The notes under the pieces are model-generated. The model did no database searches, had not been told where the DNA came from, and worked only from the letters and a program-made list of their open reading frames with translations. Made by a program: the position numbers and the translations under genes. Below, piece by piece: positions 12,254 through 22,445 of a stretch of 64,000 nt of DNA (positions within the stretch are counted from its first letter, which is position 1; the number at the start of each line of letters is the position of its first letter). Source of the DNA: Gordonia pseudamarae (lineage in GTDB: Bacteria; Actinomycetota; Actinomycetes; Mycobacteriales; Mycobacteriaceae); NCBI RefSeq assembly GCF_025273675.1, contig NZ_CP045809.1, positions 1,302,001 to 1,366,000 on the forward strand, in the 5' to 3' direction.

Positions 12254-12282
12254 TGCCAGACCCTGATGGGGACTGCCTGGCA
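12254..12282. promoter_or_regulatory. Shared island motif, copy A
   Basis: TGCCAGACCCTGATGG followed by GGACTGCCTGGCA forms an imperfect palindrome ending in TGCCA/TGGCA arms, 28 bases upstream of the MmyB-like regulator start. The TGSCAGACCCTG core recurs at 15335 and 18543, and a related form at 19251. Confidence 0.55.
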
Positions 12283-12309
12283 ATGAAACAGTCGATCTAC
12301 CATCAAAAT

Positions 12310-13191
12310 ATGGACAATCGAGCTGAGACCCGCGAGTTCCTCATGACCCGCCGGGCGAAGCTGAGCCCGGAGGACACCGGTCTGCCGGACTTCGGCGGCA
12401 TCCGCCGGGTCCCGGGGCTGCGCCGCGAGGAGGTCGCGCTGCTGGCCGGGGTCAGCGTCGAGTACTACACGCGCCTGGAGCGCGGCGGGCTCGCCGGGGT
12501 CTCCGACGGCGTCCTCGACGCCCTCGTCCGGGCACTGCAGCTCGACGACGCCGAGCGCGAGCACCTGTTCGACCTCAGCCGGGCCGCCGGACCCGCGCCG
12601 AAGACCGCGCGGAAGAAGCGCGGCCAGGTCTCGGCGAGCCTGCAGCGGCTGCTGGACGGCATGACCGGGGTGCCGGCGTTCATCCGCAACGGCCGCCTCG
12701 ACGTGCTGGCGATCAACGCGCTGGGCCAAATGCTCTACTCGGAGGCGTTCGTGCACTCCGCGCGACCGGTGAACCTGGCCCGGTTCTGCTTCCTCGACGA
12801 GGGTGCGCACCGGCTCTACCCGGACTGGCAGAAGGCCGCCGACATCGCCGTCGCGCTGCTGCACACCGAGGCCGGCCGAGACCCCTCCGATGACGGGCTG
12901 ACCGAACTGGTGGGCGAGCTGAACACGAGGTCGGAGGACTTCCGCACGCTCTGGGCCAAGCACGACGTGCGACTGCACCAGAACGGCTACAAGGACTTCC
13001 GCCACCCCCTCGTCGGCGACCTGCACCTGAGCATTGACGCCCTGGAGATGCCCGCCCAGCACGGGCTGACGCTCACCGCCTACAGCGCCGATCCGAACAC
13101 GCCGTCGGAGGCACGGATGCGGCGGCTGGCCGAGCAGGTCCACGGCACCGACGGCGCTCGGATAGCCGCGAGGGCGTCCACTGCGGAGTAG
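12310..13191 (+). CDS. XRE-type HTH regulator with MmyB-like ligand-binding domain
   Basis: A 293-residue regulator. The N-terminal HTH (FLMTRRAKLSPEDTGL, VPGLRREEVALLAGVSVEYY, TRLERG) is followed by a MmyB-like PAS-fold domain (VPAFIRNGRLDVLAINALGQ, NLARFCFLDEGAHRLYPDW, HPLVGDLHLSIDAL). MmyB-like domains are known to bind fatty-acid-like ligands, and such regulators often sit beside short-chain dehydrogenase genes; SDR remnants are indeed next to it. The start is set at ATG 12310 (MDNRAETREF), the family start; ATG 12283 is possible. The shared motif lies just upstream, so it probably controls itself and the island genes. Confidence 0.85.
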   Translation: MDNRAETREFLMTRRAKLSPEDTGLPDFGGIRRVPGLRREEVALLAGVSVEYYTRLERGGLAGVSDGVLDALVRALQLDDAEREHLFDLSRAAGPAPKTARKKRGQVSASLQRLLDGMTGVPAFIRNGRLDVLAINALGQMLYSEAFVHSARPVNLARFCFLDEGAHRLYPDWQKAADIAVALLHTEAGRDPSDDGLTELVGELNTRSEDFRTLWAKHDVRLHQNGYKDFRHPLVGDLHLSIDALEMPAQHGLTLTAYSADPNTPSEARMRRLAEQVHGTDGARIAARASTAE

Positions 13192-13204
13192 TCCCTCCTG
13201 TTCG

Positions 13205-13310
13205 CTACCCGGGCAGATCGGTGGCGGTGATCGCAGCTGAGAGCCGCCAGAGCTCCTCGGCGCCGGGGCGGTCGACGGCGTACGGTTCGACTCCGCCGGG
13301 TCCAGGTGGT
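13205..13310 (-). pseudogene. C-terminal remnant of a short-chain dehydrogenase
   Basis: A minus-strand frame ending at the TAG at 13205-13207 reads GGVEPYAVDRPGAEELWRLS, then AAITATDLPG. This is the typical C-terminus of the SDR subgroup that neighbours MmyB-like regulators. No catalytic or nucleotide-binding part precedes it in frame, so only the tail survives. Confidence 0.45.
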
Positions 13311-13395
13311 CATTGAGTGGCTCCTTTCATGTTTCATGTATGGGGTGTCGTATCGAATGCCGCGTTGCGAGGCAGAGGCGGGATCCCTCTGAAGG

Positions 13396-13419
13396 GGCCG
13401 CTCGTAGGGATGAGCGGCC
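13396..13419. terminator. Hairpin between two SDR remnants
   Basis: GGCCGCTC (13396-13403) and GAGCGGCC (13412-13419) pair perfectly around an eight-base loop, downstream of the minus-strand SDR remnant and aldo/keto reductase. Possible terminator. Confidence 0.35.
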
Positions 13420-20225: not shown

Positions 20226-21437
20226 ATGAGCGAGCCGACCACCAGCGCACCCGACGCCCCCGGGCGGCCCCTGCCGCGCAGGCGGCTCGGGTTCGCCGCC
20301 GCCGCGGCGTCGCTGGTGGTCGTCTTCGCGGCCTCCGGCGCGCCGATCCCGCTCTACGAGCGCTACCGCTCCGCCGACGGCCTGACCACCGGCGACCTGT
20401 CGATCGCCGCTGTGACCTACTTCGTCGCCGTCATGCTCGCCCTCGTCGTCCTCGGACGGCTCTCCGATCACATCGGGCGCAGGGCCGTCGCGCTCGGGGC
20501 CGTCGTCCTCGCCGCCGCCGGATCCCTGGCGCTGCTCGACGTCACCGGCCTCGGCGTGCTCATGGCCGGCCGCGCCCTGCAGGGGCTGGCCTGCGGGCTG
20601 GGCTCTTCGGCGATCGCCGCGTACATCGTCGACCTCGCCCCCGAGAAGCCGAGATGGCTCAGCGCGACCGTCGTCGCGGGCTCCCCGCTGATCGGCCTGA
20701 CGATCGGCGCCGTCGGTGCCGGGGCGCTGGCCGAGTACGGGCCCGCGCCCGAGCAGACCCCCTACATCGCCGTGACCGTCCTGCTCGCCGTGTGCGCCGC
20801 GCTCCTGCTGCTCAGTCCCGACCCGACGGCCCGCCGCGAAGGCGGGCTGCGATCGCTGCGGCCTCACGTGCACCTGCCCCACACGATCCGGCCGCTACTG
20901 CCCGCGGCGATCGCCGTATTCGTCGGCACCTGGGCGCTCGGCGGCTTCTACCAAGCCTTCAGCCCCACCATCTCCGCGCAGAGCCTGGGCACCACCAACA
21001 CCCTCGTGGCCGGGATCGTGTTCGCCTCCTTCATGGCCCCCTACGCCCTCGGCGGCCCGCTCGCCGGACGCCTCAGCCCGGCGGCCGCGCAACGACTGGG
21101 CATCGTCGTCTTCGCGCTGGCCGTGGTCGGCGTCGTCATCGGGCTGCGCACCGGGACCATCGCCGTCGTGATCCTGTGCGGCATCGTCGCCGGAGCGGCC
21201 CAAGGGGCGGCGTTCACCGGCTCCATGCGCGCACTGCTGTCCCGCACCAGCGCCGCAGACAGGGCCGGGCTCATGTCCACCGTCTACCTCTTCTCCTACG
21301 GTGGAGCCGCCCTGCCCAGCCTCATCTCCGGACGGCTCACCGCCGCCGGGATGACTTTGCAGACGATCTCGCTCGGCTACGCAGGACTGGCCGTCCTCGC
21401 CGCCATCGTCGTCCTCCTCGCCTCAGACCGGGGCTAA
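20226..21437 (+). CDS. MFS transporter
   Basis: A 403-residue, twelve-helix major facilitator. The loop-2 signature is LGRLSDHIGRRAVALGAVVL; further features are GRALQGLACGLGSSAIAAYI in helix 4 and GGPLAGRLSP in the second half. It resembles drug/metabolite exporters of the DHA group. Start ATG 20226 with GAGAAAGACCACG upstream. It lies between the ADH remnant and the cyclophilin-like genes in a plus-strand run, so it may export the product or toxic substrate of the island enzymes (inference). Confidence 0.9.
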   Translation: MSEPTTSAPDAPGRPLPRRRLGFAAAAASLVVVFAASGAPIPLYERYRSADGLTTGDLSIAAVTYFVAVMLALVVLGRLSDHIGRRAVALGAVVLAAAGSLALLDVTGLGVLMAGRALQGLACGLGSSAIAAYIVDLAPEKPRWLSATVVAGSPLIGLTIGAVGAGALAEYGPAPEQTPYIAVTVLLAVCAALLLLSPDPTARREGGLRSLRPHVHLPHTIRPLLPAAIAVFVGTWALGGFYQAFSPTISAQSLGTTNTLVAGIVFASFMAPYALGGPLAGRLSPAAAQRLGIVVFALAVVGVVIGLRTGTIAVVILCGIVAGAAQGAAFTGSMRALLSRTSAADRAGLMSTVYLFSYGGAALPSLISGRLTAAGMTLQTISLGYAGLAVLAAIVVLLASDRG

Positions 21438-21480
21438 ACACAGGCCGCGACCCCCAGCACGAACTCACCTGACCGCCCAC

Positions 21481-21513
21481 GACCACGACCACGACCACGA
21501 CCACGACCACGAC
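21481..21513. repeat. Hexanucleotide tandem repeat (GACCAC)5 abutting a ribosome binding site
   Basis: Five perfect GACCAC units plus GAC run directly into AAGAGGA (21514-21520), the ribosome binding site of the cyclophilin-like gene starting at 21529. Copy-number change by slippage would alter spacing between an upstream promoter and the gene but not the RBS-start distance. Confidence 0.75.
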
Positions 21514-21528
21514 AAGAGGATTGAATCC

Positions 21529-21876
21529 ATGGACATCCGCATCACTACCACCGGCGGCACGGCCTTGAGCGCGACGCTCGACGACATCGCGGCCATGCTG
21601 CCCCTGACGCTGGCGCTGTCCGACTTCCACTCCACCGAGAAGATCGCCGACCTTCCCGGACGGCTGAGCACCGACGGCTCGCCCGCCGCCGCCGCAGCCA
21701 GCGCCGGAGACATCGCCTACTACGCCCCTTGGGGCAACCTCGCCATCTTCTATCGCGACTTCCCCCGCTCGGCCGGACTCATGATCCTCGGCCGCATCGA
21801 CGGCCCCCTCGACGCCCTCACGCGAGGCGACGGGGCACCGACGGTGACCATCGAGGCCGCGGAGCCAACCCGATGA
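21529..21876 (+). CDS. Cyclophilin-like fold protein, cytoplasmic
   Basis: A 115-residue small beta-barrel protein of the cyclophilin-like (MJ1503/TM1367-like) fold: LPLTLALSDFHSTEKIADLP, GDIAYYAPWGNLAIFYRDF, LMILGRIDG. No signal peptide. Typical partners of this family are flavodoxins, AKRs and CMD-like proteins; the biochemical role is not known. It overlaps the lipoprotein version downstream by ATGA, so the pair is translationally coupled. Confidence 0.85.
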   Translation: MDIRITTTGGTALSATLDDIAAMLPLTLALSDFHSTEKIADLPGRLSTDGSPAAAAASAGDIAYYAPWGNLAIFYRDFPRSAGLMILGRIDGPLDALTRGDGAPTVTIEAAEPTR

Positions 21877-22445
21877 GGCTCGAGCTCACCGGACGCCCGC
21901 GGCCCAACCGGATCCGATCGTCCGCGATCGCCGCGGCCTCGGCCGTGCTCGTGCTGGCGGTCGCCGGCTGCAGCGGACCCGCGGACGACCAGGACGCCAC
22001 CAACGGGGCGTCGAGCCCGGCCGCGACCGGCGCCGGCCCGGCCCCGAGCTCGTCGCAGGACCGCGAGAGCGAACAGGGCGTCGTCGGCACAGTGGTCCGC
22101 TTCACCGCCGGCGACGCCTCCGTCGACGTCACCATTGAAGAGGACACCCCGGCCACCCGCGACTTCCTCTCCCTGCTGCCGATGACCCTCGAGCTCGAGG
22201 ACTTCGACGTCAGCGAGAAGATCGCCTACCTCCCCCGCGAGCTCGACTGGGACGGCACCCCCGGATCCGACCCCGAGGACGGCGACCTCATCTATTACAC
22301 GCCCTGGGGCAACATCGGCTTCTTCTACGACGCCACCAACATGGGCCACTCCGACCAGGTCCTCCACCTCGGCAGCTACGACGCAACCGAGTCCGAGCTG
22401 GCCGAGTTCGAAGGAAAGCAGACCACCGTCGAGACCGTGGACTGA
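21873..22445 (+). CDS. Cyclophilin-like fold lipoprotein
   Basis: A 190-residue lipoprotein with lipobox VAGC near residue 34, a Ser/Ala/Pro linker, and a C-terminal cyclophilin-like domain (LPMTLELEDFDVSEKIAYLP, GDLIYYTPWGNIGFFYD, LHLGSYDA). It aligns clearly with the preceding cytoplasmic protein. The ATG overlaps that gene's stop (ATGA). This is the third family in the island present as a cytoplasmic/lipoprotein pair. Confidence 0.88.
   Translation: MRLELTGRPRPNRIRSSAIAAASAVLVLAVAGCSGPADDQDATNGASSPAATGAGPAPSSSQDRESEQGVVGTVVRFTAGDASVDVTIEEDTPATRDFLSLLPMTLELEDFDVSEKIAYLPRELDWDGTPGSDPEDGDLIYYTPWGNIGFFYDATNMGHSDQVLHLGSYDATESELAEFEGKQTTVETVD

Follow-up and report, generated by a model that had tools for sequence, protein, structure and literature searches.

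The 64,000-nucleotide stretch of the Gordonia pseudamarae genome analysed here (the window; RefSeq assembly GCF_025273675.1, contig NZ_CP045809.1, positions 1,302,001 to 1,366,000) carries, between 12.2 and 22.5 kb, an island in which three protein families, the cupins, the carboxymuconolactone decarboxylase-like proteins (CMDs) and the Cyclophil_like2 proteins (PF18050), are each present in one form without a signal and one form with a lipobox, all inside 8 kb. The signal-less forms are a cytoplasmic cupin (14447-14875, minus strand), a single-domain CMD (19347-19685, plus strand) and a cyclophilin-like protein (21529-21876, plus strand). Their lipobox-bearing counterparts are a cupin (17925-18476, minus strand, read from its ATG), a two-domain CMD (17109-17909, minus strand) and a cyclophilin-like protein (21873-22445, plus strand) whose gene overlaps that of its cytoplasmic partner by ATGA. 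An earlier reading of the letters alone (the original prediction) had proposed these six genes and this overlap, and Pfam assigns the expected domain to each.

The lipoboxes read LTG/C, LAG/C and VAG/C, each preceded by a basic n-region and a hydrophobic core, and the lipobox cysteine is the sole cysteine in each of the three proteins. As these calls were made with our own script and by eye, the three are predicted bacterial lipoproteins, anchored to the membrane. At the thresholds used, the genome holds two cyclophilin-like genes, two cupins of this profile and one two-domain CMD (for the last, 6 of 32 first-look candidates were scored, and single-domain CMD copies elsewhere were not sought); since all of these lie within 8 kb, the pairing is more than chance. 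Among the 120 best homologues of each lipoprotein, window entries included, the script detects a lipobox in 105 for the cyclophilin (701 homologues in all), in 27 for the cupin (2984 in all) and in 22 for the two-domain CMD (5704 in all); another signal-like N-terminus is scored in 31 more cupins and 59 more CMDs.

The two Cyclophil_like2 domains score 97.4 and 87.4 bits against a gathering cut-off of 22.7. In the lipoprotein, a long low-complexity linker leads from Cys33 to the domain, which begins at about residue 72; a model built from 24 sequences, with a pLDDT of only 59, has TM1367 and the Pictet-Spenglerase KslB as its nearest folds, the latter joining L-Trp to 2-oxoglutarate or succinic semialdehyde according to its PDB titles. 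Sequence searches of the PDB with the cyclophilin profiles matched mainly signal-peptide-like N-termini, for example that of LpqN. A short tandem repeat of the CGACCA type occupies 21474-21515, directly 5' of the cytoplasmic cyclophilin-like gene.

The cupin lipoprotein passes the cut-off of NF049940, the (R)-mandelonitrile lyase family (169 vs 140 bits), and the cytoplasmic cupin falls below it (96.5 bits); the H-H-Q-H pattern of that family, whose residues we take to be the metal ligands, is kept in the cupin alignments, the cytoplasmic form included. Both CMDs stay under the PcaC cut-off (TIGR02425, 155.7 bits), the lipoprotein with 91.7 bits and the cytoplasmic form with 70.6. A sequence check found in neither of them the CxxC of AhpD, RclX and the ECF41-type CMDs, the cytoplasmic CMD having no cysteine at all.

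Several other genes accompany the pairs. The first (12310-13191, plus strand; its start codon may be further upstream) encodes a regulator of the MmyB/MltR type, with a helix-turn-helix (HTH) and an MLTR_LBD domain. It is followed on the minus strand by an aldo/keto reductase (AKR; 13579-14436; best NCBIfam match DkgA, far under its cut-off), the remnant of a second AKR (AKR2; 14910-15278), a medium-chain dehydrogenase (MDR; 15389-16387; best NCBIfam match the PIG3 quinone reductase, under the cut-off) and an NAD(P)H-binding protein (16394-17062; NAD_binding_10). On the plus strand come MmyB2 (18615-19199), an MLTR ligand-binding domain that Pfam shows without an HTH, the remnant of a zinc alcohol dehydrogenase (ADH_zinc_N; 19729-20169) whose counterpart in Nigerium has 340 amino acids, and a major facilitator superfamily (MFS) transporter (20226-21437; Pfam and NCBIfam). 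Compared with its counterpart of 343 amino acids in Nigerium massiliense, AKR2 retains the beginning and the end, the middle having been lost to an internal deletion. The six paired genes of the original prediction stand; for the genes around them the corrections are that the AKR at 14910 and the alcohol dehydrogenase at 19729 are remnants and that the MmyB-like gene at 18615 has no HTH.

At the right edge, the start of an SDR-like gene (short-chain dehydrogenase/reductase; 22480-22779), without a Pfam hit, was recognized by eye and by a nucleotide match to Prauserella, where the SDR is open. A tRNA-Ala (25727-25801) lies about 3.3 kb to the right of the island, and an ORF that resembles an IS21-type transposase by eye only (27349-28725) lies 5 kb to its right.

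The same three-pair island is present in Nigerium (locus L003) and in Prauserella alba (L004), which belong to two other families, the Propionibacteriaceae and the Pseudonocardiaceae. By tblastn, amino acid identities to Nigerium and Prauserella, in that order, are 90% and 72% for the CMD lipoprotein, 88% and 82% for the cupin lipoprotein, 77% and 69% for the cyclophilin lipoprotein, and 98% and 79% for the cytoplasmic CMD, and most island proteins fall between 63 and 98%. The housekeeping control MetG is only 38% identical in Nigerium and 35% in Prauserella, and 70% in a genome of the same family as the window (G282). We had considered the YggS-like gene just left of the island (11040-11816; the genome has no other YggS-like match) as a control and dropped it in favour of MetG, because it is closer to Nigerium (66%) than to G282 (36%); unlike MetG, it may itself be foreign.

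Distribution agrees with this. Of 61 relatives, 36 of them congeners, 1 showed the two-domain CMD, namely the window's own genome, and no congener did, in a search that scored all candidates in most genomes. Wider searches recovered it from 2 of 394 genomes in the class, 2 of 297 in Prauserella's family (one of them only at 1e-41) and 1 of 197 in Nigerium's family; the absences here are soft, since in such large runs not every first-look candidate was scored (in the class run, 6 of the 32 from the window's genome). Because identity is so far above that of MetG and the distribution so patchy, we conclude that the island was acquired by horizontal transfer. G282 possesses a reduced locus with an MmyB (53% identity), a two-domain CMD (47.5%), a Sec-type cupin (56%) and an AKR (40%), at which no match to the cyclophilin was found.

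The copies of the island differ in which cytoplasmic genes have been lost. In the window these are AKR2, the alcohol dehydrogenase and the SDR start; in Nigerium the MFS gene is split across two frames (L003 8308-9544); and the Prauserella stretch has no match to the MDR or AKR2. The paired genes are open throughout, although the cytoplasmic cupin of Prauserella is of a different kind (39% identity). MmyB2 is 85% identical in Nigerium (L003 6114-6692) and 63% in Prauserella (L004 6750-7298), so that it looks retained rather than decaying, and no convincing HTH lies directly upstream of any of the three copies; it could titrate a ligand or pair with a regulator. A tRNA-Ser (L003 11923-12013) stands 1.4 kb to the right of the Nigerium island.

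One operator-like motif precedes inferred transcription units of both arms, the cytoplasmic and the exported, weakly at one of them. Strand and spacing suggest one unit that joins the MDR and NAD(P)-binding genes to those of the CMD and cupin lipoproteins, and another that joins the cytoplasmic CMD and MFS genes to both cyclophilin-like genes. A 21-mer drawn from the sites matches exactly at 15334 (S2, 15334-15354, minus strand) and at 18564, within a double site between the cupin-lipoprotein unit and MmyB2 (S3a/S3b, 18542-18584, the 13-mer core exact in both). It matches with four mismatches at 12253 (S1, 12253-12273, minus strand, the 13-mer core exact) and at the weak site 19240 (S4, 19240-19260, minus strand). 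Distances to the first gene of the unit are 37 nt from S1 to the MmyB start used, 56 nt from S2 to the unit of AKR remnant, cupin and AKR, 66/88 and 31/53 nt from the double site, and 87 nt from S4 to the cytoplasmic CMD.

The pattern CAGGGWCTGSCAC, likewise drawn from the sites, occurs exactly four times in the window, where 0.50 occurrences are expected with up to one mismatch and 0 of 100 shuffles reach four. The whole genome has six such sites, of which the island holds four (1 for the reversed control); all three Nigerium sites lie in the island (control, 0), as does one of three in Prauserella (control, 0), and in G282 neither of two is at its locus (control, 2). A longer form of the motif is less striking (at three mismatches, 8 matches vs 3.85 expected, with as many in 6 of 100 shuffles). 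When up to five mismatches to the 21-mer are allowed, 10 matches are observed vs 1-8 in shuffled windows, and the weaker sites therefore rest mainly on their position and their counterparts. In Prauserella the counterparts of the sites show 3, 3, 2 and 0 mismatches to the 21-mer, and the Nigerium counterpart of the site at 19240 has one, though Nigerium counterparts may reflect plain descent.

How often the exported set recurs was assessed in two ways. Scanning genome contigs with a profile of the aligned cyclophilin lipoproteins found 80 loci, some cut by contig ends. According to the script, 50 of them have a lipoprotein as their best cyclophilin protein and 17 a Sec-type protein, and in the other 13 no signal was detected. 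Neighbours include MmyB (48 loci), MDR (46), SDR (40), lipoprotein-like cupins (20), single-domain CMDs (12), two-domain CMDs (3) and Pao-like oxidase matches (9). Complete exported trios were seen in four loci, L003, L004, L052 and L080; in L080 the cupin has a lipobox and the CMD is a remote one.

From the best 20 of 415 two-domain CMD records on plasmids, we judged 13 loci to be distinct by organism and identity. Twelve of them have an exported CMD, 6 an exported cupin and 5 an exported cyclophilin-like protein, and 4 have the whole trio in exported form (L090, L094, L097 and L103), the two Microvirga loci being close relatives; on a rough estimate from plasmid totals, 0.0005-0.0009 cyclophilin or cupin neighbours are expected per stretch by chance. 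Three of the 13 (L098, L099 and L103) are unannotated, their signals being judged by eye and script, and 9 of the 10 others have an annotated LysR gene. PaoABC or a related molybdenum oxidase is present in 4 of 13, and the alphaproteobacterial exported trios, which carry ordinary Sec/Tat-like signals, in some cases adjoin PaoABC-type aldehyde oxidases. Some annotated starts seem to skip an upstream signal (L090 8370-8936, L092 5263-5865 and L097 2269-2775), which would be why the cyclophilin-like proteins of these alphaproteobacterial loci look cytoplasmic although they may be exported. Signal-like N-termini are also seen on ABM, DUF1330 and NAD(P)H oxidoreductase proteins (L089 7712-8547, L091 5110-5487 and L090 4964-5581), and the exported arm may exceed three families in proteobacterial loci.

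Since the motif is shared, the island is found in other families and exported clusters exist in Proteobacteria, we regard the mirrored or exported set as recurrent. It is not described in the open literature searched, most subscription papers having been outside that search; PMC12542777 (like the other PMC papers cited below, used in excerpt) has two families of the set as separate table entries.

We also built quick trees, which have few columns and many open forks. The cyclophilin tree kept 93 of 107 domains, those under 80 residues being excluded (13 rows without a detected signal were dropped before changes were counted), the cupin tree omitted three near-copies and two thirds of the lower-ranked homologues, and the CMD tree used 21 of 120 homologues. 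In the first tree, the cyclophilin lipoprotein belongs to a group of 79 rows (support 98), with signals detected in 66 of them, and its cytoplasmic partner to a group of 14 rows (98) that has exported forms from Alphaproteobacteria close by. In the cupin tree, the lipoprotein forms make up a single group (22 rows, 97), to which the Sec-type cupins attach (41 rows, 95). Cytoplasmic cupins with an exported cupin in their locus are found at four points of this tree, one for the window and Nigerium, one for Prauserella, one for Rhodobium and Celeribacter, and one for L106. Among the single-domain CMDs, 11 of 12 group together (80, a modest support), and the C-terminal halves of the two-domain CMDs lie separately (98).

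As exported and internal forms stand in different parts of all three trees, we reject recent local duplication as the source of the pairs. Nor do the trees support a joint origin of the three lipoprotein forms, each belonging to an exported subfamily of its own with the cytoplasmic partners elsewhere. The pairs look assembled from old subfamilies, with the cytoplasmic cupin partner exchanged, and this exchange argues for the usefulness of a partner on each side of the membrane.

The explanation that we tentatively prefer, with doubt slightly outweighing belief, is a horizontally acquired two-armed regulon that detoxifies a small carbonyl or phenolic compound. The MmyB/MltR-type regulator, perhaps with the HTH-less MmyB2, would sense a small hydrophobic or carbonyl-bearing compound and act through the GGTACYRGCAGGGNCTGSCAC-type site that precedes the transcription units. 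In the cytoplasm, the AKR, MDR and NAD(P)-binding enzyme would reduce the compound, the cupin and CMD would deal with the adducts or ring forms that it yields, and the product would leave by way of the MFS protein; outside the membrane, the lipoprotein cupin, CMD and cyclophilin-like protein would act on the same compound, or on one closely related to it, before entry. The substrate would be a reactive carbonyl or aldehyde, or a quinone-like phenolic, and the PaoABC-type oxidases of the plasmid loci, with the Pao-like matches near the cyclophilins, lend some support to aldehyde handling.

Several observations weigh against this. The complete three-pair island was seen in no locus other than the window, L003 and L004; 76 of the 80 cyclophilin loci have no complete exported trio, and most lipoprotein cyclophilins stand without exported cupin and CMD. 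The HTH regulator is 86% identical in Prauserella, but an HTH-bearing MmyB was found neither beside the Nigerium island nor elsewhere in that assembly, where MmyB2 alone matches the MmyB family; HTH-length matches number three in the window's genome and several in Prauserella. A simple model in which the regulator reads the motif suffers from this, and our confidence is lowered accordingly. Linkage within a detoxification locus could also, by itself, yield the exchange of cupin partners. The original prediction of one task performed on both sides of the membrane is thus partly supported: it gains from the shared motif, the island in three genera and the recurring exported sets, and loses by the many loci without a trio and the missing Nigerium regulator.

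Among the rivals, the one that survives best, although we think it unlikely, is nutrition instead of defence: surface cupin and CMD would begin the catabolism of a phenolic or nitrile substrate and inner enzymes complete it. The similarity of CMD and cupin to decarboxylase and mandelonitrile lyase families speaks for this, as do SMP-30/gluconolactonase and amidohydrolase genes near two plasmid loci; however, the CMDs are under the PcaC cut-off and there is no ring-cleavage gene among the genes scanned (12.3-24.6 kb).

Signal processing, in which the regulator would sense a furan, butyrolactone or fatty-acid-like signal and surface enzymes would degrade or remodel the signals of neighbours, strikes us as rather less probable. 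MmyB-type regulators have been tied to furan signals, to a bound fatty acid and to adjacent SDR/MDR genes (PMC3406030), yet the genes scanned include no signal synthase-like or antibiotic gene, and the exported sets are also found under LysR regulators in Proteobacteria.

We give still less credence to an oxidative or hypochlorite response based on thiol peroxidases, like RclR-RclX or the ECF41-linked CMDs, with the lipoproteins as surface peroxidases. CMD/AhpD proteins are tied to protection from hypochlorite (HOCl) (PMC7950407), a CMD is among strongly HOCl-induced genes (PMC7464077) and CMDs occur inside ECF41 regulons (PMC3426412), but RclX and the ECF41-linked CMDs, as far as these excerpts go, have the CxxC that both window CMDs lack, and the lipoproteins have no cysteine apart from that of the lipobox. 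CxxC peroxidase chemistry is on these grounds rejected. Chance adjacency of scattered single lipoprotein genes, with which the 76 trio-less loci would agree and which the original prediction had named as its own refutation, is very improbable and in its plain form refuted, the island being common to three genera of different families, with a shared motif, and exported clusters recurring in another phylum.

A bolder extension of the detoxification regulon, which we offer as a long shot, is that bacteria repeatedly build an extracytoplasmic mirror of an internal carbonyl-detoxification set. The PF18050 protein, as a putative fold relative of Pictet-Spenglerases, would be the reactive centre, capturing or condensing aldehydes or 2-oxo compounds, while cupin and CMD would turn over the adducts on both membrane faces, under one control site tuned by free MmyB2. 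Most accounts of defence against electrophiles place it inside the cell. If true, a mirrored set that is mobile and co-regulated would open to direct testing, in harmless actinobacteria, a first line of defence that meets reactive small molecules outside the cytoplasm. It would also give a common context to three poorly understood exported families, the PF18050 lipoproteins, the two-domain CMDs and the mandelonitrile lyase-type cupins.

Known systems resemble parts of this arrangement. Like the MmyB/MltR regulators of PMC3406030, the window gene is an HTH and MLTR_LBD regulator near NAD(P)H oxidoreductases. However, 15 of 16 S. coelicolor MmyB paralogues are divergent from their putative target in that paper, whereas the gene at 12310 is convergent with the AKR and divergent from the YggS-like gene, and the HTH-less paralogue, an addition, is divergent from the cupin lipoprotein; neither faces an SDR or MDR target. 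The part of PMC3406030 used describes no exported arm, which the window is predicted to have. The ECF41-linked CMD/oxidoreductase/epimerase loci (PMC3426412) bring together CMD, oxidoreductases and sometimes cupins, as here, but in the excerpt they are under sigma-factor control and their CMDs have CxxC; the window has an XRE-type regulator and no CxxC.

For the single proteins, the two-domain CMD structure 4G9Q, a 4-carboxymuconolactone decarboxylase by PDB name only, is similar to the CMD lipoprotein over its whole length (E 2e-63), the latter differing as a predicted lipoprotein. The cupin lipoprotein shares cut-off and H-H-Q-H pattern with the (R)-mandelonitrile lyases of NF049940 (PDB 4BIF and 4UXA, which we take to be the Granulicella hydroxynitrile lyase), and the window form is, by prediction, lipid-anchored. 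TM1367 and KslB resemble the modelled cyclophilin lipoprotein in fold only. The proteobacterial LysR loci, with exported CMD, cupin and cyclophilin-like protein, an MFS gene and sometimes PaoABC, differ in having Sec/Tat-like signals, LysR instead of MmyB and internal copies of some families only, and they share with the window the same three families, exported and clustered.

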